Shown here piece after piece: positions 16,808 through 62,481 of a DNA stretch of 64,000 nt; within the stretch, counting starts at the first letter, position 1; each line of letters opens with the position of its first letter. Position numbers and translations under genes: made by a program. The stretch is from Cymodocea nodosa (taxonomy: Eukaryota > Streptophyta > Magnoliopsida > Alismatales > Cymodoceaceae): assembly GCA_036874045.1 (NCBI GenBank), contig CM072339.1, forward strand, positions 13,585,501 to 13,649,500, read 5' to 3'. The notes beneath the pieces were generated by a model, which ran no database searches, was not told the origin of the DNA, and saw only the letters and a program-made list of their open reading frames with translations.

Positions 16808-16809
16808 AG

Positions 16810-30206: not shown

Positions 30207-30223
30207 ACCCCAAACAAGTTTTC

Positions 30224-30241
30224 TGACGCCGTTGCCGGGGA
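30224..30241 (+). other. G1 primer-binding site (tRNA-Asp type)
   Basis: TGACGCCGTTGCCGGGGA; the canonical Athila-type site is TGGCGCCGTTGCCGGGGA. One base differs. Confidence 0.88.
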
Positions 30242-30322
30242 TTGAGAAACTAAGCAACTATGAGTGCTGTTTTGTGTTAAAAGCAGAGGGAGTGTTGAGT
30301 GCTTTATTCTATAATTGAGAAT

Positions 30323-32756: not shown

Positions 32757-32762
32757 GGCATA

Positions 32763-40117: not shown

Positions 40118-40560
40118 TTGTCCTTACCTTTTCTCCTACGTGAAAATTCTTTTGCTTGTGAGTTTACTAGGTTTGTTCTTGATTCTCTTCTTCTAATTGC
40201 TGAACTTAATGTTGAGGTTGTTGAAAATATTCTAGAGATTCCTGACTTTCAATTCTTAATTATGGTGGAGAGCCTACAGAACCTTCCATACTTTTATCTT
40301 GTAACTTTTCTAGTAATTGCTGAAGAGTTTCATCCTCTTTAATGAAATTTGTTGAACTATTTTTTTTCTTCGTGCTCCCTTGTTCAGCTTCTTCTCTTTC
40401 TTCTTCCTCCTCACAATCAATCTCCATTATTACTATTTTCTCAGATTCAGTGGTAGATTGGGATGAAATCTTGAGCATAGTGGATTCTACCCTAATTTCT
40501 TTGTTTGTCTTCTCTTCAAGCTACAACTCTTTTTCAACTTGTGTTTCTTCGCTCTACTAC
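40118..40560 (-). pseudogene. Inverted fragment of an ORFx-like reading frame
   Basis: On the minus strand, 40478-40260 reads EEEEEREEAEQGSTKKKN and KEDETLQQLLEKLQDK ending GSPP. G2's ORFx has the same order: EEEERAENEEAERS, KNN, EEQETLQQIMERIQDK, DSPP. So this is a third ORFx-related copy, in opposite orientation and truncated before the conserved domain. Confidence 0.6.
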
Positions 40561-40927: not shown

Positions 40928-43248
40928 TGTTTAGAATGAAAAAGTGCATATTATTAATGGTTAAATGATGGTTAATTGCACAATATTTAGCTTATCATAT
41001 ATGAATTAAGCCATTATGTTATAATTGCACTATTATATGCTTTAATTGAAGAATCTGCTTAATTTGGGGGAATTAATGTTAATTTAGTACATTTATGAAC
41101 TGTCGGTAAGTCGTAGGTTGTGAAATTCTTAAGTATTCGAATTTTCTGATATTTCAGACATTTATGTTTAACATACCAAACAAATTCGGATAGTTATGTT
41201 TAACAGACCGAATATGTATCAGATAGTTATGTTTAAATTGCCAAGCAGTTATGTTTTGAAAGTTTCCTGAAGTTAACAACTAGTCGTTTCGTTGCATTAA
41301 TTTCTCATTTAGCTAAACATTAAGTTAACGTGTGTTTTTATTGAAAAGCATGATATGCTTTAAAGTTATATCTTCTGTATCATGAATAGTGCATGTTTTG
41401 ATAACTCGTTAAGTTAGTGAGTAAAAGAAGAGACGAACTCGTTAAGTTAACATAACTAAACGCATTGAGTTGCTATATTGAACACTAAGGCAACGTGTTA
41501 GGTTAGCGTTATAAACTTAAGTTGTTATTTTTGCACGTGGTAAAATTCTTATTATAAAAACATTTGTTTATTACTGAATCGGTGAGTTAGCTGTAACTAT
41601 TCGAAATGCATTTGAGCATCGGATAGTTAGACCTATAACTCTCCAAAATGTTATTTTATGATTAAACTACTACTGACACGTGTTGAGATCTGGTAGATTT
41701 ACTTAAGTTATATATCGGTGAGTTATTTGTAAGTATCTGAAATGCATCTGAGCATCTGATAGTTAAGTTTATAAGTATCCGAAATACTCCTAAGCATCGG
41801 ATAGTTAAATTTATGCACGTGTTTTATAGTTAAATCAACGAAGAAAGTCCGTTGAGTTATATGTAACTCCACAGACTATATATTTTCTAATATACCACTG
41901 TAGCAGTTGTAGAAATAGGACAATTGGAAGGAAAAACCACGTTTGCACGTATCACGCAGGAATTCAATTGCGTAGGGAAAAGAAATCATCGCCGTTGATA
42001 TGAATGAAGGAAATCCAACCGATCATTTAAGCAGAAGCAGTTACTACTGAATAAATATAAAAGAAAAGAAGAAAAAAAGAAGAGGTGTGTGATCGATGGA
42101 CGACCAGTGTATACAGAGGAGGAGCATCGAGCTTTCTACAGACAATATCGGTGATTCTCCGAAGTATCACACCAACCATCGTTAACACCACCATAATCAC
42201 CAACCATCGTTACCATCACCATAATCACCAACCATCGGAGGTCTGTGAGGATACTTGCCTGATGTCGGGTCGATTCCGAGCCAAACACAGTGCCTGACAA
42301 CCACTATGAGGAGTGACCGCGCCGCGGGAAGGGAAGCCATTTTCACCAAGCGCCGACTCATATTTCAGGAGATCGTAAAGCTTTTAGCCTTGACTTCGAG
42401 TTGATGCCTGTATGCTGAAGAGGAGATCATCTTGCAATTATGGACTCGCAATTCTATAGGGAGAGGAGACAGGATTGTAAGTGGTTTAATTTTCAGTGGT
42501 GTAATCGCGTTGCAAGTAGTGTCAGAAGTATTTACTATCAAGTGAGATTACTTTACATTTCACCTATCGCCCATTTCCATGTTCATATTAAAACAAAAAT
42601 ACCAAAAACAATTTATCTATGTTTGTATGTTGTATTTGAGTGTTGTATTGTTTGTGTTGTATCGTGATTAATGTTATCTATGTCAGTGTTGTGATTGTTT
42701 TATGTTTACTTTAGTTTTACAGTTTACTGAAATTGGTTCATTCAAAAGACTTAAAGATTTTAATGGTTATTGTTTGAATTATCTGAATGTTAGTATTGCT
42801 CAATGATAAATCCAATGTTAACTAACATTAAAGAGCTTAATTGATCTTATTTACAATCTGTGGAATCGCCCAATGGTTGGCCGAATTCCTTTGTAAATAG
42901 CAGTATTAAAAAGAAAAGGCAGGCTCGTGGAGTTAACTTAAGTCCACGAGGTTAGTCCGTTGAGTTATCCATAATTCAACGAACTTAGTCCGTTGAGTTA
43001 GCTGTAATTCAACGGAGAGCTTATTGAATATATAAATTTGATTTTTAACAAACGAACAGTTCTCAAGTTCGTTAGCAATTCCCTGTGGGATCGACCTGTA
43101 CTTGCACACTGATACAATAGACACTGTGCACTTGCAGTTAAAGTACAAATTGGAATTAATATCTAAATTGTATTAAAGGTTGTTTGTTTACTTCTAAAAG
43201 AAAGAATAGGCATAAAGATAAATTAACTTAGTAAAAACAGAAGTAACA
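40928..43248 (+). repeat. G2 5' LTR, carrying a block from a copia LTR
   Basis: About 2.3 kb, starting TGTTTAGAATGAAAAAGTGC. 41270-41572 matches the inner part of the C1-C3 LTRs (ACTAGTCGTTTCGTTGCATT through AAAACATTTGTT), with internal deletions between CTCGTTAAGTTAG repeats. Gypsy-type sequence follows with CGGATAGTTA elements (41620-41805), then TATAAAAG at 42056-42063 and the CGTTGAGTTA/AATTCAACG cluster at 42920-43020. The end is placed by comparison. Confidence 0.83.
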
Positions 43249-43296
43249 AATCCAAGTTTTTCTAGTGTAGTGCTGGGAAGACCCAAACAAGTTTTA

Positions 43297-43314
43297 TGCC
43301 GCCGTTGTCAGGGA
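43297..43314 (+). other. G2 primer-binding site (tRNA-Asp type), with a degraded second copy just upstream
   Basis: TGCCGCCGTTGTCAGGGA, close to TGGCGCCGTTGCCGGGGA. CAAGTTTTTCTAGTGTAGTG at 43252-43271 and CAAGTTTTATGCCGCCGTTG at 43287-43306 look like a small duplication of the site and its flank. Confidence 0.78.
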
Positions 43315-43408
43315 ATTGAATTGAATTAAATTAAATTGATATAAGCAACTGTTAGAGCTGTTTCGTTTTAATAGTCAGAGTTGTGTGTTTTCTTCTGTAA
43401 TTGAGAAT

Positions 43409-43975
43409 ATGGCATATGCTTATGCTCAAAGATTTCTGAAACCTATAATTAGCATATGTGAATTCTGCAATTCTGAAGGACACGACATTTCTGATTGTTT
43501 GAAATTGAGACGTCTACAGATTGTTAGATCCTATGAACAACAAATGAATTATCTTCAATATAATAGAGTCGAGTATGAGAATCCTATAGTTTACCCAACT
43601 GATGGTTAGTATAGAATGTGTAATATGATGAGAGACATTGAAGTTTGGGATAGCTATGATAGACTGGAGCATAGTATAGAGCAAAATCTTGACAAACTGA
43701 AATACTTTGTGTGTCAACAACAAGAAGTCAACCAGTTAAACTATAAGGAATCATATTCAGAACCTAAATAGGATATAATTTACGAAATTGAAAAAGCCAT
43801 AAAGAAAATTGATCAAAAATTGAATGCAATGAAATTAGATGATCTGGAAACAAAATTAAAAGCATTAGACGAAAATACAATGAAAATACAAGTTATGCAA
43901 CAGAACAATGAGAATTATAATGTTATAAACCTACATAATTTGCAAAATATACAGCAAACACTAATGTAAGAGAAT
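43409..43975 (+). pseudogene. G2 zinc-knuckle start of the pol polyprotein
   Basis: Begins MAYAYAQRFLKP. CCHC knuckle CEFCNSEGHDISDC is at residues 15-28, followed by a basic KLRRLQIVRSYEQQ and a helical linker (KAIKKIDQKLNAMKLDD). Stops at 43607-43609, about 43769 and about 43967. In G1 the same segment is in one frame with protease; here a frameshift near 43950 separates them. No capsid domain precedes it: only about 160 bp of leader separate it from the LTR. Confidence 0.82.
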
Positions 43976-44031
43976 TTAAAGAATGTACTTTAAAACTAAA
44001 AACAATTGAAGATCATAATCACGAAAATGAT

Positions 44032-47000
44032 ATGCAAAAACATCATGAAAATAATGAAAATTTGGAAGATGTATGTGTAACATTAAGATCTGGAACTGAT
44101 ATACCACCAAGAACTCAAAATGAAAATGATATGAAGGTGGACAAGAGTAAAAATCAAAATGATAATGAAAATATAGCTGAAAATCTAGAAATCACTGAAG
44201 AACAATCTGAATCTGCGAATGAAGCAAAAAATGATCAAACAAATCAACTAAAAGAAAAAGAGTCTTTGAAATCAAAATCTTTAGCACCCTATCCTGAAAG
44301 ATTACAACAGACAATTCCTGAAAAACAAGAAAAAATCAGAGAAATTTTTGAAAAAGTACAAGTTAACATTCCATTGTTAAATCTATTGTAGAAAATGCCA
44401 CCTTGTGCTAAATTTCTTAAGGATTGGTGTACTAAGAAAAGAGAGTGAAAAGTTCTTAGAAAGGTCTTTTTAGCTGAGCAAAGTAGTTCCCTATTTCTGC
44501 CATAAATTCCTAAAAAGTTATCTAATCTTGGAATCCTTGTTATATCATGCACCATAGGAAATACCATTTTAGAAAGAACATTAATAGACTTAGGTGTAGG
44601 TATAAATGTTATGCCAAGTGATATATTTGTATCCTTAGGATTAGAAGGCTTAACTCCTACTAGTACGGTTATTCAATTAGTTGATAGAAGTATAAGATAC
44701 CCTAAAGGAAAAATAAAGGATGTCTTAATTAAAATCAAAAATTTTATATATCCTATTGATATTGTAATTTTGGATTCCCAACAAATTAAGCATAAAAATA
44801 GTGATACATCTTTAATTTTGGGAAGACCATTTTTAGCAACATCAGGGGCTGTTATCAATTGTAAAACTAGAGTAATGAAGTTAGCATATGGTAATGAAGA
44901 TACTCAATTAAATATTTTCAAACCAGAAAGGTTTGAGGAGTTAGAAATGTCCTTACATATCATAGACTTTTTAGAGGATGAAGGAGATATGTTAGATGAT
45001 GTGATTCAAGAAGAATTAAATAGGCAAATCAATTTTAAAACTTTAGAAGAAAGTGAAAGAATAAATATAGAAGGAGATCGGGAAGAAATTAATTTAAAAA
45101 ATGATGATATTCAATTAGGAGCTCTAGCTTCTGATGGGCAGCATTTAGAATTAAAACCTTTACCTCCTGAATTAACCTATATATTTCTAGAAGATAAACG
45201 AACCTGTCCAATCATTATTGCTTCAGATTTAAAAGAGTATCAAATAGCTAAATTAAAAGATGTAGTAAAAAGTTATAAAGAAGCAATAGGATGGACTATG
45301 ATTGATATAAAAGGGTTAAGTTCAACTTTATGCTGTCACCACATATATTTAGAAGAGAATGCTAAACCTGTTAGAATTCTTGAGAGGAGATTAAATCCAA
45401 ACCTTAAAGAAGTAGTCAGGAAGGAAATAGTTAAATGGTTAGATAATGATATAATTTATCCGATTTTTGATAGCTCGTGGGTTAGTCCAATCCATGTAGT
45501 TCCTAAGAAATCAGGATTAACAGTTATTAGGAATGAAAGTCAAGACTTAATACCTACTAGAATTCAATTAGGCTGGAGAGTATGTATAAACTATAGAAAG
45601 CTGAATGCTGTGACTAGGGAAGATCATTTTTCCTTACCTTTTATAGATCAAATGCTGGAAAGATTAGCAAGGCAAGAATATTTTTGTTTCTTAGACGAGT
45701 ATTCAGGGTATAATCAAATTCCAGTAGCATTAGAGGATCAAGAGAAAACAACTTTCACCTGTCCTAATGGAACTTATGCTTTTAAAAGAATGCCATTCGG
45801 ATTATACAATGCGCTAGCTACCTTTTAAAGATGTGTGTAGGGCATATTTACTAGAATGACTGAAGATTTTTTAGAAATATTTATGGATGATTTTACTGTA
45901 TATGGCAACTCATATGAAGTGTGTTTAAGCAATTTAGACCAAATATTAAAACGTTGTGTGGAAAAAAATCTAGTTTTAAATTGGGAAAAATGTCACTTGA
46001 TGGTTAAACAAGGAATAGTCTTAGGGCATGTTGTTTCTAAAAAAGGGTTGGAAGTAGATAAAGCTAAAATAGAAGTAATTTCTAATCTACCAGAACCTAA
46101 ATCAGTAAAAGATATTAGATCATTTCTAGGACATGCTGATTTTTATAAAAGATTTATTAAAGACTTTAGCAAGATAGCTAGACCTTTAACTAATCTATTA
46201 AAAGATGTTCCATTTAACTTTGATAAAAATTGCAAGGAAGCATTTTTCAGACTTAAGACTAGCTTAATTTCAACTCTTATAATTCAAGCACCTAATTGGA
46301 ACCATCCATTTGAATTAATGTGTGATGCTTTTGATTTGGCTGTAGGAGCAGTGTTAGGACAGAAGATAGAAAAATCTCCTAGAGTGATTCATTATGCAAG
46401 AAAAACCTTAAATGATGCTCAAGTTAATTACACAACTACTAAAAAAGAATTATTAGCTGTTGTGTTTGCTTTAGAAAAGTTTAGATCATATCTGATTGGA
46501 GCTAAAGTAATAGTATACACGGATCATTCAGCTCTAAAACATCTAATAAAGAAAAAAGAAACTAAACCTAGATTGATCCGATGGATATTATTATTACAAG
46601 AATTTGATCTAGAAATTAAAGATAAAAAAGGTTGTGAGAATGTAGTAGCAGATCATTTATCAAGATTACAAATAGAAAAATCAAATATTAAAATTAAGGA
46701 TAATTTTCTTGATGAACAATTAATGACCATCAACACAATGCCTTGGTATGTAGACATAGTTAATTACTTAGTTATTGGTTTAACACCTAAGGATTGGAAT
46801 AGACAGGATAAGAAATTGTTTTTCTCAAGAGTAAAATATTACTATTGGGAAGACCCATACTTATTTAAGAAATGTCCTGATCTGATTTTAAGGAGGTGTG
46901 TTCCAGAAACTGAATATCCGAGCATATTGTCTTTCTGTCATGACCAAACTTGTGGAGGACATTTTGGTTTAGGGAAAACTACTGCAAAAATTCTGCAATG

Positions 47001-48046
47001 TGGGTTTTATTGGCCAACACTATTCAAAGATGCTCATAAATATTGCTTAAGTTGTTTAAGATGTCAACAAATAGGAAGAATATCAAAGAGGAATATGATA
47101 CCTCTTAATCCTATTGTTGAGGTTGAAATCTTTGATGTGTGGGGAATAGATTTTATGGGTCCATTTCCTATGTCTAATCAATTTAATTACATATTGTTGG
47201 GGGTGGATTATGTTTCAAAATGGATAGAAGCTATTCCTACAAAAACTAATGACAACAAAGGGGTAATACAATTTATAAAAACAAATATATTTGCCAGATT
47301 TGGAATACCTAAAGCTATTATCAGTGATAGAGGAACTCATTTCTGTAATAGAAGTTTTGAAGCCTTAATGAAGAAATATGGAGTAAACCACAGAATTGCA
47401 ACATCATATCATCCACAAACAAGTGGACAAGTAGAAAGTGCAAACAAACAAATTAAATTAATCTTAGAAAAAGTAGTAAATCCTACCAGAACAGATTGGG
47501 CTAATAGATTGGTAGATGCACTTTGGGCTTATAGAACTGCTTATAAAACGAGCTTAGGTATGTCACCTTTTAGGCTAGTATATGGAAAAAGTTGTCATTT
47601 ACCTGTTGAAATAGAACATAAAGCTTATTGGACATTAAAAACTCTAAACACTAATTTAAATCAAGCTGTTGAAAATAGAAAAATGTAATTAATTGAATTA
47701 GAAGAATTTAGAAATGAAGTTTATTCAAAGACTGTAAGAGAAAAAGAAAAAAATTAAATTTTGGCATGATAGAAAAATTATTCCTAAAAGCTTTGAAATA
47801 GGACAAGAAGTATATCTTTATATGGCTAGACTCCATAACCATTTAGGAAAATGAAGATGTAGATGGGCAGGACCTTACATAGTTCGAAATGTTTATCCTT
47901 ATGGAGCTATTGAAATTAAAAATCCTAAAAATCAGAATATATTTAAAGTAAATGGACAAAGACTTAAACCTATTCTGAAAACACCAAAAAGCTCCTTTGG
48001 AATTATAGAAGAAGTCGGAGTAGAGGACTACTCGAGCTTTACTTAG
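44032..48046 (+). pseudogene. G2 pol: protease, RT, RNase H, integrase
   Basis: TLRSGTDIPPR at about 44078; protease DLGVGINVMP at about 44590 and LGRPFLATSG at about 44817. RT: WVSPIHVVPKKSG, GWRVCINYRKLNA, MPFGLYNA and catalytic FMDD at about 45885. RNase [43 protein letters not shown]. Integrase: zinc finger [11 protein letters not shown]...CLSCLRC, then [24 protein letters not shown], so the acidic triad is present. C-terminal WAGPYIVRNVYPYG and FKVNGQRLKP end at TAG 48044-48046. Stops at 44389, in 44446-44505 (two), at 45826 and 45838, and at 47686; a frameshift follows near 47750. The two long pieces 44611-45828 and 45856-47688 remain open. Confidence 0.93.
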
Positions 48047-48602
48047 TAAGAAATCAATTTTTATGTTTATATATATATAAAAAAAATATTAAAAATATAT
48101 ATAAAACATAAAAATAGTTGCGGTTCAATCGATTGGATCCATCGGTATGACCGGAACATTAAAAAAATTGTATTAATTTTCAGAAAAAATAATGGTTTTA
48201 CCGAAACATAGTATCGGTTCAACTGAAAGAAAAATAAAAAATATTTAGGTCTGACCGAAACATAGTATTGTTTAAACCGGTAAAAAAATAGAAAAATTAT
48301 TCTCTGTAATATTTTTATTATTATATTTGCTTGTACGGGAAGTCCGTTGAGTTATGCTTAACTCAACGAGTTTACTCCGTTGAGTCTTGAGTTAGTCAAC
48401 GAGCTTATTCCGTTGAGTTACAGTTAACTCAACGGAGTACTATAGCTAAGACTGCGGATAAAATAGTAATAGTTGGTTTGGGAAATGACCCGATTACCTG
48501 CCTAAACTTAGGGCTTATTTAAACTAAAACTTAGAGTTTTGGGGGCATTATCCGGCAAATCATTTAGAATCTAGAACAGTAATAGAATAGATTGGTAGTT
48601 AG
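48047..48602 (+). other. G2 spacer with ACCGAAACATAGTATCGGTT repeats and a motif cluster
   Basis: AT-rich at 48060-48115. 48120-48290 has three diverged copies of a GACCGAAACATAGTAT-GGTTcaac unit, partly palindromic. 48340-48440 is a dense cluster: CCGTTGAGTTA, TTAACTCAACGAG, CCGTTGAGTTAC, TTAACTCAACGGAG. TATTTAAAC follows at about 48518, some 85 bp before ORFx. Confidence 0.75.
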
Positions 48603-49712
48603 GAGGAAGAAGAAAGAGCAGAAAATGAAGAGGCTGAAAGAAGCCATTTAGACAAAAATAATTTCACAGATTCCATTGAAGAGCAAGAAACTCTTCAGCA
48701 AATTATGGAAAGAATTCAAGACAAAGTGGAGAGTTCTGCCGACTCACCACCACAAACAGAAGCAAAAGCAAAAATTTAGGAATCTGAAGAGAATGTCCAA
48801 ATGCAGCCTATGCTAGAGGAAGAACAAGTACAAACCCCTTAGGAGCAACAAAGTCACCTTCCTGACCCGACTGAAATAACAATTTTGAATGAAGTACATT
48901 TTTGTAGTAAGGAAGCTTATACCAAATACCAAGAAATAAGGGGTTACGATATTATTTACAGTAGACCAGTAAATTGGGATGGAATGCAAGAAATCAAAGA
49001 TCTATTTGAATTCCAAGGTCTATTGCAATTTATATCTCAAGAAAGAGGGCATGTAGTATATGAAAATTTAATGCCCTGTTTCTATGCAAATTTGAGAGAA
49101 AGAGAAGGAGGATTAATTTCAAACGTGGAGGAAGCTAATGAACAGATAACACCAGAGCTTCTCCATAACATATTTGGTTTAAAGAATGAAGGAACAAAAA
49201 TTTTGGAAGATACAACTGCAGTTGAATGGACTGAGCAACAAATTAAGGATTGTTTAGCTATCAATCCTGGTGTGCCATTATTAAACAGATTGAAGCATTT
49301 AAATGGTAAAGCACACATGGTAGCTAACATTCTGATTAAGAATGTCTATCAACAATAGGGTCATGACATAGAATTAAGTTAATTTGTCAAATGGGCCACG
49401 TATGTAGTTGTAAATAAGATCCAAATAAATTGGTCTGTAGTTTTTATCTCCAAGCTGAAAACAGTGAAGAAGAAATTATTTTATGGAGATTTGATTCCAC
49501 TGCTGATGGTGGACTGTATCGATTTCACTAAATGGACATCAAAAAAGATCAGATCAAGAACCATTTCAGTGAAAGAATACAGAAATTTTGTAGCTACAGA
49601 ACTAGCAGTACCTTCTAGAGAAATTACAGGAGCTGTAGAGAGGATTAATCAATTAGAACTTCAATTAGAAAAACTCTAGAAGGAAGTAGATGAACTTAGG
49701 CATAGAGATTAA
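48603..49712 (+). pseudogene. G2 accessory ORFx
   Basis: One frame of 370 codons with four internal stops and the end at TAA 49710-49712; the start is unclear because the frame is blocked just upstream (a spliced start is possible). Acidic N-terminus (EEEERAENEEAERS, EEQETLQQIMERIQDK). The conserved domain is open at 48885-49358: EIKDLFEFQGLLQFI, CFYANLRERE, ITPELLHNIFGLKNEGT, AHMVANILIKNVYQQ. Then NKIQINWSVVF, KKLFYGDL, a KWTSKK block and a C-terminal coiled coil (INQLELQLEKL). The order and residues parallel C1's ORFx. Athila elements often have an extra frame at this place that has been called env-like; no membrane helix is seen here. Confidence 0.8.
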
Positions 49713-50665
49713 ATTGTATTGTTCGTCTACTTATGTAAAATTGTATGAAATTGTATGATGTACTTGTATTGTAATTGATTCATATTAATGAAGATAATTT
49801 TTCAGATACAATTTTCATACGTGTGTTGGATGTGAGAATGAATGGAATTTATTGAAAATTAAGTAATTTGTGGAACTTTATGAATGAATATGTAATAGAT
49901 TTACAATTTGCTGAATGATAGATAACTGCTTAAAAATTTCTGCATGTTGTAAGGTAAAATATAAATTCTGCATAACATAAAATGACCTGCAAGTTAAATA
50001 TTTATATAATGTTCATATTTAAATGTATTTTAATCAAAATGAGGCATTAATGACATAGATTTAACTTTATTACAGTTAGCAGAATGACAGAGCAAATAAA
50101 AAAAAAAAATAGAATAGAAACACTTACAAGAGTAAAACTTAGTTGTTGCGAAGTGTTAACTCAACGAAGTAAGTCCGTTGAGTTAACCGTAACTCCACGA
50201 GGTTAGTAATATAATATAAGGTCACTCCGTTAAGTTATCTGTAACTCAACGAAGTTAGTCTGGGGAGTTAGCAACAGTAACCGACTGTGTTTCGTTGAGT
50301 AATCTGTAACTCAACGAGGTTAGTTCGTAGATTAAGCAGAACAGTTATTCTTCTAACCACGAACGAAACTTCGTCAGTTTAGTGGTTACCTAAATTTGAA
50401 ATTAGTAGTGGTACACGTACCCATAAAAACAAGAACCACGATGCACGTTGCAAGACACGTTCTTGCAATGAGATTTATTCACTTTATGGATGCACAGTAT
50501 ATATATGAAATAGAATGTTATTTACGAGTTACCAGTACTTTTAAAAGAAAGGAGAAAGCGTTGGAGGAACTGGAAGGAGAAGCAGCTGATTCAACTTCAT
50601 CCGACAACAAATATTTATAGAATGGAAAGCTTCAGACTGGTATGTAATTAATCTACTATTTATTT
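49713..50665 (+). other. G2 spacer before the capsid ORF, with a motif cluster
   Basis: 50145-50335 repeats AACTCAACGAAGT, GTCCGTTGAGTTAACCG, CTCCGTTAAGTTATCTGTAAC and CTCAACGAGGTTAG. A 74-codon open frame at 50396-50620 is in frame with the Gag ORF and ends in TAG 45 bases before it; it could be an upstream extension of Gag but is not recognised. A strong donor-like CTGGTATGTAA is at 50637-50647. Confidence 0.65.
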
Positions 50666-52009
50666 ATGAGCACATGGACTCATTCTCTAAGCACTAAACG
50701 ATTAGTAAGAACACCTACCCAGGAATTTTCATTGCAGAGGAGTACTAAAAAATTTTCTGAACTGAACTTTAACGAAATTCTTTGGGGTGCAGCTAACCTT
50801 TCTTTAAAAGAGAACGTAGAGATGGCTGTTCCAGTAGAAAAACCATTAGGAGAGATTCTGTATCTTGAATTAATTGATGAACCTTCATGTATTCGATTGC
50901 CAAATTTTGAGGGAGATAGGTTTGAAATGAAATCTAATTACATTAGTCAATTGCCACATTTTCATGGATTAGAAAGAGAGGATGCCTATTATTTCCTTAG
51001 AGAATTTAACGAAGTTTGTCAAATGATGAAAATGCTAAACATGAGTATAGATGCTATTAAACTTAGATATATCCCTTTTTCTTTAAAAGATACAGCTAAG
51101 AGATGGTTATATACTCTATCGCCTGATTCAATTTCTACATGGACTGAATTTTGCTCTATTTTTCTGGAAAAATATTATCTAACATATCAAACGATTAAAA
51201 AGAAGAAAGAAATATTAATGTGTAGCCAAAAACAGGGTGAATCATTTTGGAAATATTTTGAAAGATTTAAAGATTTACTGACTCAATGTCCACATCATGC
51301 AATGAGTAAAGCACAATTAATAGGTATAATTTATGAAGGCATAGATGTTTCAACGAAATCTTTATTAGAATCTACTTGTCAAAATGGATTTTTAAAATTA
51401 TGTAGTGAAGAAGCATGGGTATATTTAGAAAACTTTGCAAAAAGAACTGCACAGTGGGAAAATTTGGCTAAAGCTATTGCAAATAAAAGAATATTGCCAA
51501 GAGGAATGCATGAAATAGATTCCAAGACTATGCTGGAGGTGAAATTAAATGAATTAACAAAGAAAATAGAAGAATTATCATTAAATCAAAAGCTAGCAGA
51601 AAAGAATACAAACATAAATGACTTAGATATTATTTATGCTAGAAACCAGAGAGATAACTTGGGAAATTCTTGTAATCCTAATTGGAGAAATCACCCGAAT
51701 TTATCTTGGAGAAACAATAATTTTCAGGGAGGAGAAAATATAAATGAGAAGAACATAATTTATGAAGTATTAATTGAACAAGGAGCTAGAATAGAGAAAT
51801 TAGAAAAGATAATCCAACAAGTAAACAATCGTCTAGAATTTATATTTGGAAATGCTGCAATTCAAAATCAAAATAGAAATATATCACTTAGACAGAAGGA
51901 ACCAATGGAAGTTAGACCTACTAGAGGATTACTAATACAAGCTATACCTAATCCTATCAATAGAACGGTTAATGAAATTGATACCTCTTCTAGGAGGGCA
52001 GCTGAATGA
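50666..52009 (+). CDS. G2 capsid-type Gag, intact 447-codon ORF downstream of pol
   Basis: The retrotransposon Gag (capsid) domain runs at about residues 95-270: FHGLEREDAYYFLREF, DAIKLRYIPFSLKDTAKRWL, TWTEFCSIFLEKYY, GESFWKYFERFKDLLTQCPH and EEAWVYLENFAKRTAQWE. This is the standard order in Athila Gag. NPNWRNHPNLSWRNN at about residues 340-354 is the Athila Gag C-terminal signature, followed by a coiled coil (ARIEKLEKIIQQVNNRLE). No CCHC knuckle: that module is found alone at 43409. Normally this protein is encoded immediately after the 5' LTR; here it lies about 2.6 kb beyond integrase. It is the longest Gag frame in the window without a stop, while its neighbours all have several. A motif cluster lies 330 bp upstream. 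A later second Gag source cannot be excluded. Confidence 0.9.
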   Translation: MSTWTHSLSTKRLVRTPTQEFSLQRSTKKFSELNFNEILWGAANLSLKENVEMAVPVEKPLGEILYLELIDEPSCIRLPNFEGDRFEMKSNYISQLPHFHGLEREDAYYFLREFNEVCQMMKMLNMSIDAIKLRYIPFSLKDTAKRWLYTLSPDSISTWTEFCSIFLEKYYLTYQTIKKKKEILMCSQKQGESFWKYFERFKDLLTQCPHHAMSKAQLIGIIYEGIDVSTKSLLESTCQNGFLKLCSEEAWVYLENFAKRTAQWENLAKAIANKRILPRGMHEIDSKTMLEVKLNELTKKIEELSLNQKLAEKNTNINDLDIIYARNQRDNLGNSCNPNWRNHPNLSWRNNNFQGGENINEKNIIYEVLIEQGARIEKLEKIIQQVNNRLEFIFGNAAIQNQNRNISLRQKEPMEVRPTRGLLIQAIPNPINRTVNEIDTSSRRAAE

Positions 52010-52197
52010 AGCAACATATCTGAAGCAACTATCTGTATGTATATATGTTTTATTTTTAGTTAATAGTATCGTAGAGTTAATTTTTAACTCAATGAACTTA
52101 GTCCGTTGAGTTATGCCTTAACTCCACGAGGGTGTGCAGTAGTTAGGTTAATTTTTGTCTCTGCTAAATATTTGTTTGTGTTATACAGAATCGACAA
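52010..52197 (+). other. G2 spacer between Gag and F-box frames
   Basis: 52068-52131 has another motif cluster (CGTAGAGTTAA, TTAACTCAATGAAC, GTCCGTTGAGTTATG, TAACTCCACGAGG). A donor-like CTGTATGTATAT lies at 52034 and an acceptor-like TTTGTTTGTGTTATACAG ends at 52188, ten bases before the F-box ATG. Confidence 0.7.
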
Positions 52198-53336
52198 ATG
52201 GAATTGATGCAATTACCGTTGGATGCACTAAGAGAAGTATTAAGTAACTTGTCAGCTAAAGATCTGTGCAGGTTGTGTTGTGTATCAAAGGAAATTAAAG
52301 ACTGTATTGAAGAAAAATATTTTCATGGACTACAAGCTGCAAAAATGACTAAGATTAGAGAAGGATTTATATGGAGGTCATTTAATCGTAGTTCAAATAC
52401 CCATGAATATCTGACTATGGAAGAAACTACTGGAATTCCACCCAATGCATTAGAAGGAATAAATCATATTATGGGGATAGATGAAGGATTAATCATATAC
52501 AAGACGAGACCAAGGTATGCAAGTTTATTATTACCGGATATTTTGATAAGAAATCCTATAACAGGTGAAGAATGGAATATAGGAAGACCTAATAGATTTG
52601 AAGCACCAACTGTAAATTGTGGGTCAGTTTTAATATTTTCTGATAAAAATTCTACAATTCTTGAAAAATTATATTATTAGAGACCTATAGGAAATTAGGG
52701 TGAAGATTTACGTTTAAGTGTGTATAATTTTCTGAACAGATCTTGGATTGAAAACATTATAATATATCTAGGACAGAAATCATTAATTAACCAAACACAT
52801 GTCATACTTGATGGATATATATATTTAGTCACAGAGATATCAATAGCATATAGATTTGATTTATACATAGTGAGCATAGACAGTTATGATGATTATATAG
52901 AAATTTTACCTATACCGAGTGAAATAGCTAAACCACCATCTACAGAATTTAATGAAATTCAAATAGGAATGTGGTATAATGAAGAAGATGATCCTACTTT
53001 ATGTCTGATAAGATGGTGGGATGAATTGATGAAATTTCAAATATGGATTATGGAAAACATGAATGAATGGAGTGGGAAGAGGAGTATATTGAAATAGATG
53101 TAGAAATAGAAACTACTACATTACCCTAGAACCAAAAAGGATCCCTTTCTGCATTACATATCATTAATGGTAATACACTCGTATTTGGAATTTATAATAT
53201 ATTGCATGTTTACAAATTAAGAAGGAACAAAAACTGCATTAAAACAGAATTAATAGCAAGAAGAACTATGCCTAAAAAGTTTGCTTGGACTGATACATTT
53301 ATTCCATTTGTTTCTACTTTTCAATCATGTTCTTAA
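52198..53336 (+). pseudogene. F-box-protein-like frame inside G2, about 380 codons, degraded
   Basis: Starts MELMQLPLDALREVLSNLSA; residues 6-40 fit the F-box (LPxDxLxEVLSxLxxKDLCRLxxVSK), the part that binds SKP1 in SCF ubiquitin ligases. Downstream is an F-box-associated type layout: ILIRNPITGEEWNIGRP at about residues 120-136, then LDGYIYLVTEISIAYRFDLY, CLIRWWDELMKFQIWIMEN, and after a frameshift near 53070 GSLSALHIINGNTLVFGIYN and FAWTDTFIPFVSTFQSC to TAA 53334-53336. Stops at 52678-52680, 52696-52698 and about 53123. Total length equals an ordinary plant F-box protein. It lies between Gag and the polypurine tract, in the element's orientation, and has no visible introns, as expected of a captured cDNA. 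Target unknown. Confidence 0.8.
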
Positions 53337-55087
53337 GCTGTGATTTTGTGTGTCTAATGTTGTGTATTCTGCATTTATTTTTAGAAAAAAAAAAGGAATT
53401 TTGAAGTTTTCATGTTCATTTTATAAATAAAAATATAAAAAAATATCAATCCAGTTTGTTGGTATCTGTTCTAGGAAACCAATTGGCTTGCTTGTGAGCC
53501 ACCAAAGGCATAAGAGCCTGGGTTCCACACAAGACATTGATTTAGTAATATCTGTTAAATGTTATTTTGTTTTATATTTTGCTTTTATCTATGAATGAAA
53601 AGTTTTTCAGAATAAAAAACAAATTAGAATATGTAGAAGGAGATACAAATGGAACAAGGTATGTAACCAATTACTTATCTTGAATTTTAAATCAAACAAA
53701 ACTTTATTCATGTCTGCTACAATTATTGTACTTATTGTCAAACTCTTTACATTAAGGACAATGCAAAATGTAGGTATGAGGGGAGGTAATTAAAGTAACA
53801 GCTATGTAAGTTTGTTAATTAAAGAAATTAAAATAGTACTGCAAAGTTTTGAGGAAATTGAAAATTTTTATGAACTTGCTATAACTATTCGATAATTGAG
53901 ACTGTAATTTTTTTATAAACTGCTTGAATGTTATATTTAGAAGGCTATATAAGATGCTATAGAATTTATTATTTATGTAAATCTAGATATAGTATCTTAT
54001 GTTTTTTTCTGAATTTCATGAGTTTAACAGTTTCACGATTTTAAAATGAAATCAGAATGCTTAATGAAAAATCAATAAATTATCTGAAGTCCTGAAAGAT
54101 TTGAGATGTGAATTCTAGATTAAATGAAACACATATGATTAAAGATACATCTAATTTGACTGATTTAACTTGTAGAATGATTTATGTGTAGATCTTATGA
54201 AACTACAGAAAAAGTATGAGCTTATTGAGATGGATTCATATTTTCAGTAAATGATAGAAGTAGAACTATATGAGATTGGTGTTTTACTGCATCTGTATTA
54301 ATGAAATACATACATATATTGTATGTGATTATTGTTTTGTTTTGTGTTTGTAGTTTTGATTGAAAAAAAAAAAAAAATTGAGAGTTTATTGACTTGTTTG
54401 ATCACGAGCCTTTTGTACTTGAGCAGATAGGTATGTAAGGATTGTTGACCTGAAAAAGGACTCTTAAAATCTGACAACCTAAGATCCTAATCAGATCTGG
54501 GATTGTTGACTGAAAGCTCGTTACATGGGTACATTAGAAAGCTCTTGTATGATTCAAGCTTGTCAAATTAACTTTTAAAGTATGGAAAAAAAAAGAAAAA
54601 AAAAAGAAAAAAGAAAAAATACATATACTGTTCTGAAAAGATACAAGTGTTTTGTGAAATATAGATATCTTATGAATCGAGTATATTTTCTGTTATCTAG
54701 AATTGCTGAAATATGAATTTGTAATTGACTTTTGAAGTTGTTTAATGGAGATACAATTCTTTATTCTACTTGTCTTAATCATATTGAATTAGATTGTATT
54801 TTGATTCGTATGTTGTTGAAATTTCTTCTAGAAATCTTTTTGGAAAATTCAAGATGATAGATGATGAAAAGAAGAACAAATGATAATATAATTAACACCT
54901 ATATGATGATGATATACTTGGTATGTAATTTACATATATTCTAAGTATATTTGTAGATTGATTACTGAAACATACAGAATATATTTTTATGCTAAACAGA
55001 AGAAAAACAAAAGGGGAAGAATTAATTCTAACACTTTTAAAGACCAATTAATTAGATCTTAGTTTGCTAAGGGATTAGCAAAAATTA
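53337..55087 (+). other. G2 long 3' non-coding region
   Basis: No coding frame seen. 54020-54980 is related to C1's 20090-20970, best in 54381-54580. A looser related motif (GAGCCACCAAAGGCATAAGAG) is at 53497. A-rich tracts are at 54361-54377 and 54580-54620. Confidence 0.75.
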
Positions 55088-55100
55088 GGTATGGGGGAAG
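55088..55100 (+). other. G2 polypurine tract
   Basis: GGTATGGGGGAAG directly before TGTTTAGAATG, the LTR start shared with 40928. It marks where plus-strand synthesis would begin. Confidence 0.85.
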
Positions 55101-56844
55101 TGTTTAGAATGAAAAAGTGCATATTATTAATGGTTAAATGATGGTTAATTGCACAATATTTAGCTTATGATATATGAATTAAGCCATTATGTTATAATTG
55201 CACTGTTATATGCTTTAATTGAAGAATCTGCTTAATTTAGGGGAATTAATGTTAATTTAGTACATTTATGAATTGTCGGTAAGTTGTAGGCTATGAAATT
55301 CTTAAGTATCCGAATTTTCTGATATTTCAGACATTTATGTTTAACATACCGAACAAATTCGGACAGTTATGTTTAATAGACCGAATATGTATCAGATAGT
55401 TATGTTTAAATTGTCGAGCAATTATGTTTTGAAAGTTTCTTGAACTTAACAACTAGTCATTTCGTTGCATTAATTTCTCATTTAGCTAAACATTAAGTTT
55501 ACGTGTGTTTTTATTGAAAAGCATGATATGTTTTAAAGTTATATCTTCTGTATCATGAACAGTGCACGTTTCGATAACTCGTTAAGTTAGTGAGTAAAAG
55601 AAGAGACGAACTCGTTAAGTTAGTGTTGTACATGTGGTGAAATTATAAGTTACGAATGTTATAATGTATCACGTGAGGTGCACATTTTTAACTCGTTAAG
55701 TTAACATAACTAAACGCGTTGAGTTGCTATATTAAACACTAAGGCAACACGTTAGGTTAGTGTTAGAAAACTTAAGTTGTTATTTTTTGCACGTGGTAAA
55801 ATTCTTATTACAAAAACATTTGTTTATTACTGGTTCGTTGAGTTATCTGTAACACAACGAAGATGGTTCGTTGAGTTATTTGTAACACAATGGAGATGGT
55901 TCATTGAGTTATCATAACACCACGAAGATAGTTCGTTGAGTTAGCTATAGTACTTGTCACGTGACTTGGCACATGAGGAACTCGTTAAGTTAGAAACGTT
56001 AAGTTTTATATCTATTTGTATTACTTGTTTAGTTAACATTAAAGTAACGACTTCTTATTATACTTGATGAAAAATTTTGGAAGAGAAAGTTTATTTTGCA
56101 GAAAATTTTTTAGAGATCCAAGATTAATTATTAAAGAAAATTCGAAATGTAAACGTGGGTTAGAACATGTGTATTTCAATGAAGGAAAAGGAAAAGACGT
56201 GAAGAAGTGGAAGACTGATAGTGATTAAACGTGGAGGATATGCATGAAATGAAGATATAGTATAAAAGGCATAGAATTCTCGTTGATCAGTTATCTCTGC
56301 ACACAAAACGAAAAATCTTTTCAGAGATCAAAAACACCTTTTCGAGGAAAAGCTCTCAAGTGAAAGAAAATTCAGTGAAGCATAAAAAGGTAAGATATAT
56401 GTCGCTGAAGATTTGAAGTATTAGATGGAAGAAAATTTAGTGCAGTAGAAAAAGTCAGATTTATGTCACTGAATATCTGAAGTATCAGGAGAAAGCAAAT
56501 TCGATGAAGTAGAGAAAGACAAAATATTCATCACTAAAGAATTGCTGAAGAAGAAAAAGAAGAAGAAGAAAGATCTTAAATAGAGAGAAATGTTTTAAAT
56601 TTCGCATATTAGTTTTCTCTATTTGTAGTTATGAAATTGTATAGATGAAACATGGTATCGATATATAATTGCATCTACAATTTCTGAGGAGAATTGAATT
56701 GTATATTGTAATTGAAACCTTGAATAAAAATGATTTTATGAAAACAGTGTCTCGACTTGTTTTTGAGTTTTAAAGTTTCAATTATATTCGAAAATGTTGA
56801 AAAGCACAATTCACCCCCCTCTTATGTAGCCATGCGATCCTACA
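55101..56844 (+). repeat. Hybrid LTR: gypsy (G2) left end joined to copia (C-type) right end
   Basis: 55101-55448 matches the first 340 bp of the G2 LTR. 55449-55830 is the block common to both LTR types. After 55831 it follows only the copia LTR, with TATAAAAGG at about 56261 and the end GATCCTACA. A copia primer site (TGCTATAAGAGC, 56847-56858) follows. The switch lies within the shared block. Confidence 0.85.
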
Positions 56845-57043
56845 AGTGCTATAAGAGCTTTGTTAATAATCTTTGATATAAAATCAATACCAACTTATTT
56901 AAGATCATTGCTTATTTTGCCTTCCTTGTTTTGAAACAGAAATTAATATCTGAGCATACGTTTAACTTTCTTGATATAAGGCTCAAATTGTTTTATCATT
57001 TTAGACTGTTTAAAATCATATTGGTTGAAAAATCTAAGATAAG

Positions 57044-59255
57044 ATGGCTATTGGAAATGGTAATTTTTCTTTGTATGAATGTCAAAATCTTAATCATCCT
57101 CCTTTATTTGATGGAATACATTTTGAATATTGGAAATATAGGATGACAGTTTTTCTTCAAAGTATAGATCACAAGTTGTGGTTCATGATTTCTAAACCAT
57201 ATACTCCGTTATCTACCCCTTATAATACTTGGACAATTACTGAAGAAGAAAATGAAACTCTGAATGCTAAGGGCTTAAATATTTTATTTTGTACATTGAG
57301 TTATGAACAGTTCAGTAAAGTGTTAGCATATAAATCTGCTTATGAGGTATGGCATGCATTAGAAGTTTCACATGAAGGACTTCTCAAGTTAAAGAGACAA
57401 AAATAAACATGTTGATTCATAAGTATGAACTCTTTAAGATGCATGAAGACGAAAATATTTCTAAGATATTTTCCAGATTTCTTAATATCTTAAACTCTTT
57501 AAAATGTTTAGGAAAGAATTTTGAACAGAAGGATTTGGTGAGGAAAATTCTCAGATCCCTAAGTTCTAAATGGTCTCAGAAAGTAACATCAATTGAGGAA
57601 TCACGAGATTTAAATGTTTATATCATGAATGAACTTATAGGAAACTTAACTACTTATGAAGTTCAACTAAATGAATCACTGAGTCAAAACAAACTAAAAA
57701 TGAAGAACGAAATAGCCTTCGAAATTAATTCAGATTCTAATATATCTACTGATTCTGATGAGGATTTGATTTTGCTGACTAGGAAATTCAAGAAAGCATG
57801 GAAAACTAGGAAACAACAAAGGAACAAAAATAATAAACCCTCAACATCAAAATCACTGAATGACAAGAATTCTTCATCTAGAAAGTATATATGTTACAAC
57901 CGTAAGAAACCTGGACATCTTTCTCCAAATTGTCCTATAAGGAAAAATGAAAAGTATAGTAGGACAAATCAGAAGAAGACGGCTCAGAAAACTTAGAAAA
58001 AGTTTTACAAGAAAAAGTTTTACAAGAAAAAGGCTTTGAAGGTCACTTGGGATGACACGTCAAAAGAGTTTGAATCTAAGGAATCATCATCAAAATCTTC
58101 ACATTCAAATGGAGAACTAGAGTTAGCAGACGTTGCTCATGTGTGCTTCATGGCAAATGAGTCTAAGGTAATATCTGATCCTGAAAGTTATTCAAATTTT
58201 AACTTTGATGAATTATTATGTGCTAATCATGAATTATTACAAAAACTTAAAGTTTGTAAACTAGAAAATAAGAATATCAGAAACTCTTTATCCATTGTGG
58301 AAGAAGAAAATTGTTTCCGATCTACTACTTTAGAAAAGTTTAAATGTGATAATGAAAATCATGCTAGAGACTTGCATAAATTTAGATTTAATGAATGTGT
58401 CTTGCATGAACAAATACAAAATACAAATGCTGAAAAATTAAAGATAGAATATGAAAATGAAGTGTTGAGAAAAAATATAAATGATCTCGAGTTAGAGATT
58501 GATAAAATAAAAATGAGAGAGCTAGATTCAAATTCTACCATTGAGAAATGGAATTTAAGTCAAACTAAGTTAGATAAACTAACTAGTACCCCTACGGTGT
58601 CATATAAATTTGGCTTAAGATTTGATTATCCTTAACATCCTGAATCTCAAGCCAATAAAGGATTTCAAAACACTGGTTAACTAGTACCCCTGCGGTGTCA
58701 TATAAATTGTCTAAATGTACTTCTAACATAATTATTAATGTTTCTAAAAATCTTGTTTCTTGTTTTGGAAATTCAATTTCTAATGTTTCTAAAATTTCAA
58801 ACAATTGTAGTAAACTGAAAATTCAGAAACTCGAGCATGTAATTCAAAATACTGGTATTAGACCATTTACTCATTCTACATGTGATAAATCTGAAAATTC
58901 TTGTGTAGAAGAAGATTTTGTATGTATTGAAAATTTTAATACAAGTACAAAATCTTGGTATGAACTTACTGAAATGTATGAGTATGACCAAAATAAATTA
59001 ACATCTGATAAAAATCGGCTTGGACTTGGTTATACTACATTTGAAAACAAAAAGAATGATGATAACAGTAATAATGCTATAAGTAAGTATGAAGCTAATG
59101 ATAAGTCAATAGTACTTACAACTAATAAGAATGTAAATGATAATGTTAAACTGTTTTTAAACAAAAAGAAGAAATATGCGTTTAATGAACTTGGTCCTCA
59201 ACAACATTGGGTACCAAGAAAAATTTTTCATAATTTGTTTTGTAGGAGGAAATAA
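57044..59255 (+). pseudogene. C2 gag
   Basis: MAIGNGNFSLYECQNL start, then PPLFDGIHFEYWKYRMT. A one-base deletion at about 57378 shifts the frame into INMLIHKYELF, VRKILRSLSSKWSQKV and a knuckle in which the second cysteine is R (CYNRKKPGHLSPNC). A long acidic and coiled-coil part follows (SIVEEENCFRST, AEKLKIEYENEVLRKN). At 58585-58710 a 30-bp segment (AACTAGTACCCCT.CGGTGTC) is duplicated around an inserted 90 bp with a stop. The C-terminal part (58695-59255) is open. The long coiled-coil Gag is a Sirevirus trait. Confidence 0.88.
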
Positions 59256-59259
59256 CATC

Positions 59260-59596
59260 AAAATGGATCTTAGACAGTTGAGCATCAAGTAATATGACCG
59301 GACAGAAAAGTCTACTACAAAATTTTACAAATACCATGAAAGGAAGTGTAACATTTGGAAACAAAAGCAAAGATAAAATCATAGGTACGGGCAATGTTCT
59401 AATAACTCAAAATTGTGTTATTTTGAATGTACTATATGTAGAAAACCTAAGATTTAATTTACTGAGTGCTATAAAACTAACTAAGAATGGATACTATGTA
59501 ATGTATGCAAAATTATTGATAAAAATACAGATGAAATTAAGTTTATTGCTAAAAGAAAAGGTTCTATATGTATTTTACCTTTACCTTCTAGTGTAA
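59260..59596 (+). pseudogene. C2 protease
   Basis: WILDS then a stop then ASSNMTGQKS: the catalytic D-S-G of copia proteases has its glycine codon turned into TGA. Later LYVENLRFNLLSAIKLTKNGY is the usual copia protease C-terminal block. It cannot be active. Confidence 0.85.
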
Positions 59597-59613
59597 TTGA
59601 TTTAAATTCATGT

Positions 59614-60718
59614 TTGCCAGCTGAAACTAGTAATGCATATCTGTGGCATAGAAGGATTAGGCATATAAATATGAAACTGTTACATAAACTATCTAGAAAA
59701 TATTTAGTGAAAGGTTTACCAAAGATTAAATACTCAAAGGACTGTATATGTGAAGCATGTGAGTTAGGTAAACTTCACAAAAACTCTTTTAAATCCAAAA
59801 CTGATATTTCAAGTAAGAGAGTCTTAGAACTTATACATATGGATCTATTTGGACCAACAAGAATCATGAGTCTTGGTGGTAAACAGTATGTATTTGTTTT
59901 AGTAGATGACTTCTCTAGATACACTTGGGTATATTTTCTAGCATCTAAGATAGATGTTTTCGAAAAGTTTAAAATGTTTTGCAATCTTGTGCAAAATGAA
60001 CAAAGTGTCTCTATTCAAAAACTTAGGAGTGATCATGGTACTGAATTTGATAATGATCAGATGAATAATTACTGTATAGATCATGGCATTGATCATAGAT
60101 TTTCTTTTCCAAGTGCACCATCTCAAAATGGTGTTGTTGAGAGAAAGAATAGATCACTTCAGGAAATGGCCAGAACTATGTTGAATGAATATAAGTTACC
60201 TCAAAATCTTCGGGCTAAAGCAGTAAATACAGCTTGTTATGTGATTAACAGAAGTCACTTAAGACATCGTGTTAATAAAACTCCTTTTGAAATTATGTTT
60301 AATAGGGTACCAAAAATTTCCTATATGAAACCATTTGGTTGTAAGTGTTTTATTCTTAATACTAAGGATAAAAGGGATAAATTTCAAGCCAAAGTGGATG
60401 AAGGAATTTTTGTAGGTTACTCTAATAGAAGTAAAGTCTATAGAGTATATAACAAGACTTCTAGAACTGTTAAAGAAACCCTCCATGTAAGCTTCAATGA
60501 AAATTCTTTTAGAGAATCTCAATCTAAAGCTGATAATGATGATATGATCAATTTTCCAAAAGAGTTAGAGATCAATAGAGAGATTGAAGATTTATCTGAG
60601 AAAATCAAAAATATGAACTTAAATGATCAAACTAATGATTAAAGTGATGAACTTTCAGATGTTGATGAGAATATTGAGGAAAATCAGAGAAATTGGCGTT
60701 ATTCTTCATCACATCTCA
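59614..60718 (+). pseudogene. C2 integrase, core intact
   Basis: Open to 60642. GAG-pre-integrase/zinc finger: HRRIRH (H12, H17) and CEAC (C46, C49). Catalytic D77 (MDLFGP), D140 (LRSDHGTEF) and E176 (NGVVERKNR), with spacing DD35E. Then KPFGCKCFI, VDEGIFVGYSNRSKVYRVYN and a charged linker with a stop at 60640-60642. The frame differs from protease, so a frameshift lies at about 59580-59612. It is the best preserved enzyme domain of the copia copies. Confidence 0.92.
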
Positions 60719-62467
60719 TGTTGAGTATTTTTGTTTTGATGATGTGTGCTGAATGAAAATAATCATATTTGCTCAATTACTATTGCTTGTGAAAAGAAAT
60801 TAAAATCATCAATTAATACAGAAAAAGCTTACTAATATAAATACTTGTCTGTATTGGATCTGAAGTTAATAACTAGTCATTTCGTTGCATTAATTTCTCA
60901 TTTAGCTAAACGTTAAGTTAACGTGTGTTTTTATTGAAAAGCATGATATGTTTTAAAGTTATATCTTCTGTATCATGAATAGTGCACGTTTAGACAACTC
61001 GTTAAGTTAGAGGTTTGTTTGTATAGAGGTCACGTGAGAACTCGTTAAGTTAGAGGCTTAAAGGTTAAAATAGGTCACGTGATAACTCGTTAAGTTAGTG
61101 AGTAAAAGAAGAGACGAACTCGTTAAATTAATGTTATACACATGGTGAAATTATAAGTTACGAATGTTGTATTGTATCACGTGAGGTGCACATGTTTAAC
61201 TCGTTAAGTTAACATAACTAAACGCGTTGAGTTGCTATATTGAATACTAAGGCAACGCGTTAGGTTAGTGTTATAAACTTAAGTTGTTATTTTTGCACGC
61301 GGTAAAATTCTTATTATAAAAACATTTGTTTATTACTGAATCGGTGAGTTAAAGTTTTTTCGAAGACTTACAGTCGTAACTATTAGAAAGGTAACTTAAG
61401 TCATGTTTTCAGGTTTTGACACGTGTCTCACTAGTTTTATAATATAAAGAGTTTTTCAGTGACTTACATCTATAACTATCCGAAACTTAAATTGTTTTCG
61501 GTGAGTTATCGTTTAACCTTCCGAAAGAAAGGTTAAGCTGGTTCGTTGAGTTAGCATAACACCACAGACTTAGTTCGTTGAGTTAGCTACAGTACTTGTC
61601 ACGTGAAATGGCACATGGTGAACTCGTTAAGTTAGAGACGTTAAGTTATATATATATACTTGTGTTACTCGTTTAGTTAACATTAAAGTAACGACTTCTT
61701 ATTACACTGATGAAAAATTTTTGGACGAGAAAGTTTATTTTGCAGGAAATTTTTCAGAGATCCAAGACTGATGATTAAAGAAAATTCAAAATATAAACGT
61801 GGGTTAGAACGTGTGTTTTGATGAAGGAAAAAGAAAAGACGTGGAGAAGTGGAAAACTGGTAGTGGTTAAATGTGAAGGATATGCATGAAATGAAGATAT
61901 ACTATAAAAGGCATAGAGTTCTCATTGATCAATTTATCCTTGCACACAAAACGAAAAATCTTTTCAAGGATCAAACCATCCCTGCAAACCAAAAGAAAAA
62001 TCTTTTTTAGGGATCAAAAACACCTCTTCGGGAAAAATCTCTCAAGTGGAAGAAAATTCAGTAAAGCATAAAAAGGAAAGATTTTCGTCACTGAAGATTT
62101 GAAGTATCAAAAGAAAGCAAATTCGGTGAAGCATAAAGAGACAAGATATTCGTCACTGAAGAATTACTGAAGAAGAAAGAAGAAGAAGATAGATCTCAAA
62201 CAAGGAGAAATGTTTTAAATTCTGCAAATTAGTTTTATCTGTTTGTAGTTATGAAATTGTATAGATGAAACATGGTATCAAAATATAATTGCATCTACAA
62301 TTTCTGAGGAGAATTGAATTGTATATTGTAATTGAAACCTTGAATAAAAATGATTTTATGAAAACAATGTCTCGACTTGTTTTTGAGTTTTAAAGTTTCA
62401 ATTATATTTCAAAAAATATTAAAAATACATAATTCACTCTCCTCTTGTGTAGCCATACGATCCCACA
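60719..62467 (+). repeat. LTR shared by C2 and C3, with a 200-bp extra segment
   Basis: 1749 bp, TGTTGAGTATTTTTG ... GATCCCACA. TATAAAAGG is at 61913-61921. Compared with C1, 61335-61545 is extra and contains CGGTGAGTTA, CTATCCGAAA and CCTTCCGAAAG elements of the kind found in C4 and the gypsy LTRs. It serves as right end of C2 and left end of C3. Confidence 0.88.
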
Positions 62468-62469
62468 AG

Positions 62470-62481
62470 TGGTATCAGAGC
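62470..62481 (+). other. C3 primer-binding site (tRNA-Met type)
   Basis: TGGTATCAGAGC, exactly the canonical plant copia site, two bases after the LTR. Confidence 0.93.

Follow-up and report, generated by a model that had tools for sequence, protein, structure and literature searches.

An F-box gene as a recurrent cistron of a high-copy Ty3/Gypsy LTR retrotransposon in Cymodocea nodosa

A high-copy Ty3/Gypsy LTR element carries, as one of its integral genes, the F-box frame found behind gag in a stretch of Cymodocea nodosa DNA, and we hold it virtually certain that this frame is not the chance passenger of one copy. The window, which is the whole 64,000-nucleotide stretch analyzed, carries one broken copy of the gene, and the frame stands at the same place in nearly all element copies fetched from the genome. 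The overall explanation that we favor, with a probability of roughly 0.6, is that the element captured an F-box cistron that became integral to it, that would be expressed by splicing and whose product would act as an SCF adaptor on a target.

Architecture of the element and its F-box frame

The two LTRs of the window element start at 40928 and 55101, and their first 300 bases are 96% alike. The LTR pair, together with the order RT - RNase H - integrase in one frame (Pfam), places the element in Ty3/Gypsy; the Athila label implied by the earlier note on this DNA draws on a resemblance of gag, and the gene order does not support it, since gag stands behind pol, unlike in Diaspora of that lineage. 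Behind the 5' LTR, at ~43297, lies what we take to be a primer-binding-like site, and pol presumably also includes a zinc-finger-like stretch. No Pfam family matched orfX above cut-off, and one of the window's Copia elements carries a relative of orfX (34% identical) at 22851-23312. The best of the ten protein relatives found for gag came from Tasmannia lanceolata, with 44% identity over 62%. Rfam at gathering scores and a tRNA scan found nothing in the window. Feature positions are collected in Table 1.

Table 1. Features of the element, with positions counted in the window
Feature	Position	Strand	Basis or remark
5' LTR (TG...CA)	40928..43289	+	direct repeat with 55101 onward; 3' end inferred from the primer-binding-like stretch
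Three palindromic units, LTR end, before pol	42926..43014	+	motif count
pol, several pieces: weak protease match, RT, RNase H, integrase	43340..48046	+	frames and Pfam
Palindromic units before orfX	48345..48434	+	motif count
orfX, broken frame, product function assigned to no Pfam family	48567..49700	+	open-frame list
Palindromic units before gag	50176..50316	+	motif count
Putative short first exon, ATG and 15 bases	50622..50639	+	ends at donor; intron from 50640
gag, open in window copy, behind pol, inside putative intron	50666..52009	+	Retrotrans_gag E 4.4e-19
Two palindromic units before F-box (52070-52094, 52104-52128)	52070..52128	+	motif count
Putative 3' splice site, pyrimidine-rich stretch, ACAG	52159..52188	+	acceptor rank and conservation
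F-box frame	52198..53336	+	PF00646 match; in the window interrupted by two in-frame TAG stops and a later shift of frame
Non-coding module M	53895..54956	+	69% identical to part of a Copia element (19988-20975)
Purine tract adjoining LTR	55087..55100	+	sequence
3' LTR start	55101..55600	+	passes into Copia-type LTR from ~55430

Gag lies behind pol and orfX rather than before pol, both in the window (43340-52009) and at loci L009-L028. A second copy of the element in the window (28584-32763, 82% alike) runs from the LTR to the start of pol, likewise with no gag between them. Among the titles and abstract starts searched for such elements, none clearly described one with gag behind pol.

Palindromic units of the type CGTTGAGTTA-n-TAACTCAACG were counted 43 times in the window and 0 times in each of five first-order Markov resamplings. 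They form arrays of a 33-base unit, which stand before every cistron and in the LTRs, so that the F-box frame is indeed preceded by the same motif cluster as pol, orfX and gag, as the earlier note had remarked. Across 21 copies, two units precede the F-box in 19, one in L015 and none in L016, and in this set the palindromes have no special conservation compared to their surroundings.

In the window copy, the F-box frame starts with the ATG at 52198 and remains open for 160 codons, and its first piece matches PF00646 with E 3.1e-11 and 43.1 bits (curated cut-off 20.5), confirming the N-terminal F-box that the earlier note had read from the letters. That note was also right to place the frame between gag and the polypurine tract and to call it broken by stops: in-frame TAG codons occur at 52678 and 52696, and the sequence shifts into another frame further on. 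The window gene measures 1139 bases; of the 21 copies measured, this one included, 18 have a length of 1140. Ten A residues at 53385-53394 form a run ~50 bases past the F-box stop, and the stretch after the gene holds no long frame for ~1.7 kb, up to the purine tract and the LTR start.

Open copies of the gene, found elsewhere in the genome, encode a protein of 379 residues. An F-box was recognized by Pfam in all five open copies scanned, with E 1.6e-9 to 2.2e-10 and 37.7-40.5 bits. The full-length F-box-associated C-terminal part claimed in the earlier note did not stand up in the same way: the window copy has no FBA match in Pfam, and neither PF07734 nor PF08268 exceeded its curated cut-off in the five open copies. 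Sub-threshold matches were seen to FBA_1 in three of the five (PF07734/PF08268 test; E 0.018-0.036, 14.4-15.4 bits, cut-off 21.1) and to FBA_3 in four of the five (E 0.67-2.5, 8.5-10.4 bits, cut-off 20.7). Protein-database searches with the F-box piece found no relatives at E<=0.01 (13 and 54 candidates), a PDB sequence search gave one weak match for the window piece (E 0.57) and none for an open copy, and an IMG/VR scan with the F-box protein yielded no relative. A single-sequence fold had a mean pLDDT of 34.1.

The predicted domain layout of the open copies is that of a plant F-box/FBA protein, far diverged. From this layout and the lack of introns we infer a capture from the host, and since the frame is without introns, it was probably captured as cDNA; a plant F-box/FBA-type coding sequence would have been taken up behind gag before the family spread.

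Other repeats surround the element. At ~55430-55620 the sequence of the 3' LTR gives way to that of a Copia-type LTR, behind which the 55101-64000 region holds two tandem Copia units with a spacing of ~5.6 kb, an arrangement as after unequal recombination. The Copia element at 15263-25798 shares with the Gypsy element a relative of orfX (compared with 48843-49679), the 1 kb module M and partly alike LTRs, as if modules had been exchanged between superfamilies; it is nested in another repeat (14388-26934), an uninterrupted copy of which lies at 34058-36054. Just outside the 5' LTR, an inverted remnant on the minus strand (40221-40448) resembles the start of orfX (48567-48800). Further upstream, part of a gene for a membrane protein, which we take to be OSCA/CSC1-like, lies on the minus strand at 10052-10549 (PF13967 RSN1_TM, E 3e-19).

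Recurrence and selection across genome copies

The genome searched comprises 374.6 Mb in 28 contigs. A 160-residue F-box query gave 5129 first-look candidates, the best 150 of which had 91-100% protein identity, and a gag-piece query gave 5970 candidates, of which the best 150 were likewise taken. Twenty loci chosen by F-box were fetched and 19 were used, leaving out L021 (wrong place). In every one of these, a full-length F-box gene comes immediately after the 3' end of gag. All or part of module M is present behind it in 18, and the 3' LTR start was matched in 16 (unmatched in L009, L019 and L022).

A second set, which avoids choice by F-box, consists of 40 places (20 + 20) from the gag list. 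The F-box gene was found at the expected distance in 38 of these, with 34 at full length, three carrying deletions in the gene or beyond (L031, L047, L051) and one, L052, cut by the edge of its stretch. Of the remaining two, L043 runs into a Copia element and is uninformative on F-box presence, and L035 has LTRs and a purine tract, with only the first ~30 F-box bases before a jump to the purine tract and LTR; because those bases remain, L035 must once have had the gene. The definition of an additional ORF given in PMC7264820, that it occurs in all or most copies and not in one or few, fits the 38 of 40 gag-chosen places. With the frame at the same place in both samples and open in some copies, the recurrence that the earlier note had proposed to look for is there, and the possibility it raised that other copies lack the gene fails.

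Selection was assessed in the 34 full-length gag-chosen copies, which leaves out partial ones, by classing changes with reference to a neutral spectrum that was derived from non-coding parts of the element. The true frame of the F-box gene had 413 non-synonymous and 168 synonymous changes, giving an omega of 0.69, and stop-making changes numbered 29 compared to 48.6 expected (p 0.0017). Frame 1 had 44 stops with 41.1 expected and an omega of 0.95, and frame 2 had 37 with 33.6 expected and an omega of 1.01, placing constraint in the true frame only, of the three. Pairwise dN/dS averaged over 666 pairs of F-box copies and 136 pairs of gag copies came to 0.57 and 0.59, respectively, both uncorrected for a strong C-to-T bias. 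The dN/dS below 1 that the earlier note had suggested checking for is seen both pairwise and in the gag-chosen copies. We read these results as modest but real purifying selection on F-box during spread, followed by neutral decay of the inserted copies, and the mutation pattern suggests that the element needed the F-box gene while spreading.

Other measures bear on how far this reading goes. In the F-box-chosen sample, gag had 38 stops compared to 29.4 expected, which is no deficit, and six non-coding readings ranged from 0.62 to 1.61. A test on shared variants gave 0.69 for F-box frame 1, 0.57 for gag frame 1 and 0.73-0.88 for non-coding controls, and as the controls also fall below 1, the shared-variant omega counts as weakened. 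Among the gag-chosen copies 31 of 34 are broken and 3 are open. The F-box is open in 11 copies of a 21-copy set, which was drawn by long frames from a list ranked by F-box score and is no measure of the family share; this set leaves out L021, L009 (the same copy as L002), and L003, L004, L006, L007 and L008 (other orientation). Gag is open in the window and in 0 of 16 stretches extracted from the same set, two of them cut at the locus edge. The idea that F-box stays open while gag decays was dropped as selection bias, given the open share of the gag-chosen sample. Changes between copies in module M and the spacer, among L009-L028, are mostly C to T (0.56 per site) and G to A (0.49), with all others at <=0.13, as expected from decay of methylated cytosines.

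A putative splice past gag and the short derivatives

The earlier note had called the F-box gene free of introns, which holds within the frame itself; upstream, an intron containing gag is likely. The candidate donor before gag reads ATGGAAAGCTTCAGACTG/GTATGT, with the exon ending at 50639, and the candidate acceptor before F-box reads ...TTTGTGTTATACAG/AATCGACAAATGG, with the exon starting at 52189. When ranked within 40928-55100 using splice matrices, the donor came 2nd and the acceptor 5th, and the upstream ATG at 50622 is in frame with F-box once 50640-52188 is removed. The donor stretch could be located in 16 of 26 stored sequences; the remainder are cut, deleted, reversed or diverged there. 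GT and ATG are kept in all 16, and GTATGT in 15. At the acceptor, AG persists in 20 of 21 copies, L028 being the exception, and 14 of the 21 read TTACA(G/T) at the window's ATACAG. No special conservation was seen for the pyrimidine tract before the acceptor in the 21-copy set. Because the splice signals are strong, conserved and in frame, we propose that F-box is quite probably made from a spliced mRNA. Unspliced element RNA would yield Gag, and spliced RNA without gag would join the short exon and its ATG to the F-box frame.

Four pol-less copies retain the F-box gene. L020, L024 and L028 have a common pol deletion, from 43332-43347 to 48082-48084, and nearly all of orfX is gone; L020 and L024 are also without mid-gag, with junctions that are close and not identical. 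These three still have their LTRs, the sequence that follows the 5' LTR, F-box, module M and the purine tract, and L020 and L024 retain both putative splice sites along with F-box. Their LTR pairs agree at 93-97% along the main matched stretch. In L025, gag and F-box remain and pol is gone, and most of the 5' LTR and the sequence next to it are missing from its map as well. The F-box is open in L025, and of its 380 codons the first stop falls at 377 in L020, 350 in L024 and 96 in L028. The retention of F-box in elements that must borrow Gag and Pol, seen here in four copies, suggests either a benefit in cis or only that needed signals lie nearby.

Possible function and relation to known systems

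Because of its family membership, the F-box protein would be expected to bind SKP1 through its F-box, with its C-terminal part bringing a target to the SCF ubiquitin ligase, an adaptor role that we consider somewhat probable. The likeliest single kind of target would be a host factor that holds the element in check, for instance part of the silencing apparatus, with the element's own proteins as the alternative; that the target belongs to silencing or defence, with silencing already suggested in the earlier note, is a tentative proposal, at well below even odds. Its fullest version is doubtful: a spliced counter-defence gene would turn the host SCF against the host's own silencing machinery, and even non-autonomous derivatives would keep F-box to shield themselves or their kin.

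The protein could also act on the element itself, by controlling how much Gag, integrase or orfX protein is present or how long it lasts, or by limiting copy number. The putative splice choice, under which one RNA would give either Gag or F-box, is consistent with such self-action, as is the constant company of the gag 3' end in the copies fetched. Against it, F-box persists in derivatives that have lost most of gag and pol, a point softened by their need to borrow those proteins; we rate self-action as rather unlikely. Somewhat less likely still is a single capture of a host F-box cDNA by a copy that became a successful master, with amplification of the gene without a function of its own. Such hitch-hiking would agree with the broken state of nearly all gag-chosen copies, with a pairwise dN/dS near that of gag, with the part of the shared-variant signal that also appears in non-coding controls, and with L035, which has LTRs and a purine tract and just ~30 bases of the gene. 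Against it stand the stop deficit and omega below 1 in the true frame only, in a sample that was not chosen by F-box, and L020 and L024, which keep F-box despite the loss of pol and mid-gag.

A further reading takes the frame to be incidental and the stretch to be retained for the signals it provides in cis, namely splice sites, arrays, 3' module and purine tract; the retention of splice sites, module M and purine tract in the short derivatives would fit it. However, constraint tracks the reading frame in the 34 gag-chosen copies and the F-box domain is still recognizable in every open copy scanned, making this reading improbable. The ten-A run behind the window gene would fit a host F-box gene's processed pseudogene that had nested in this copy and in no other. 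The best target duplication framing the F-box scored 11, a score reached or exceeded by 9 of 60 random pairs, and this lack of a duplication above chance, together with the shared position of the frame in 19 of 19 and in 38 of 40 further copies, excludes such a pseudogene for all practical purposes.

No LTR element with an F-box was found in titles, abstract starts and parts of PMC7264820, PMC11963269, PMC13317346 and PMC9289625. Additional sense frames between pol and the 3' LTR of plant LTR retrotransposons are already known, with splicing cited for the extra frame of barley Bagy2 (PMC7264820), and within the literature searched an F-box as such a frame is new. The present element resembles those in having an extra sense frame in that place that is kept in most copies; the sense frames described there are envelope-like, whereas here the frame encodes an F-box protein, and pol precedes gag as well. 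Screening of 121 angiosperm genomes turned up 15 unusual domains (PMC9289625), and section 12 of that paper lists PMD, G-patch, AIR1, DUF1409, YgdH, L26, B3, ArgoL2 and 2-ODD; F-box is unnamed in that section and has 0 occurrences in the main text. The orchid Ty3/Gypsy elements of that study, with an m6A demethylase-like 2-ODD domain, are similar in that a many-copy Gypsy lineage acquired a plant-type domain, but the domain differs. Diaspora of soybean, in the Athila lineage, has a single gag-pol frame (PMC1142308); it and the present element are both Ty3/Gypsy, and here gag stands behind pol and orfX, not in front of pol, with F-box next.

Viral silencing suppressors with F-box-like motifs include polerovirus P0 and crinivirus p22 (PMC6593998, PMC6784205), and a host F-box protein, FBW2, targets AGO1 (PMC9035678). 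P0 and p22 are, like the predicted protein here, parasite-coded with an F-box motif. Their motifs are short, F-box-like and viral, whereas the present protein, known from sequence, has a canonical F-box above the Pfam cut-off and an FBA-like C-terminal part and belongs to a retrotransposon. VANDAL DNA transposons encode VANC anti-silencing proteins that bind specific non-coding regions (PMC10398659). As in VANDAL, an element-coded protein may here act for its element, and non-coding repeats lie within the element; VANDAL are DNA transposons with no F-box, in contrast to this LTR retrotransposon.

Additional frames of plant LTR elements are often without recognizable function, and an F-box predicts SKP1 binding and loss of a target. 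The splice choice between Gag and F-box, if true, would offer the element an easy way to alternate between particle production and action on its host. Should the target prove to be a silencing factor, this would be a case of silencing suppressed by an LTR retrotransposon in the manner of viral P0.
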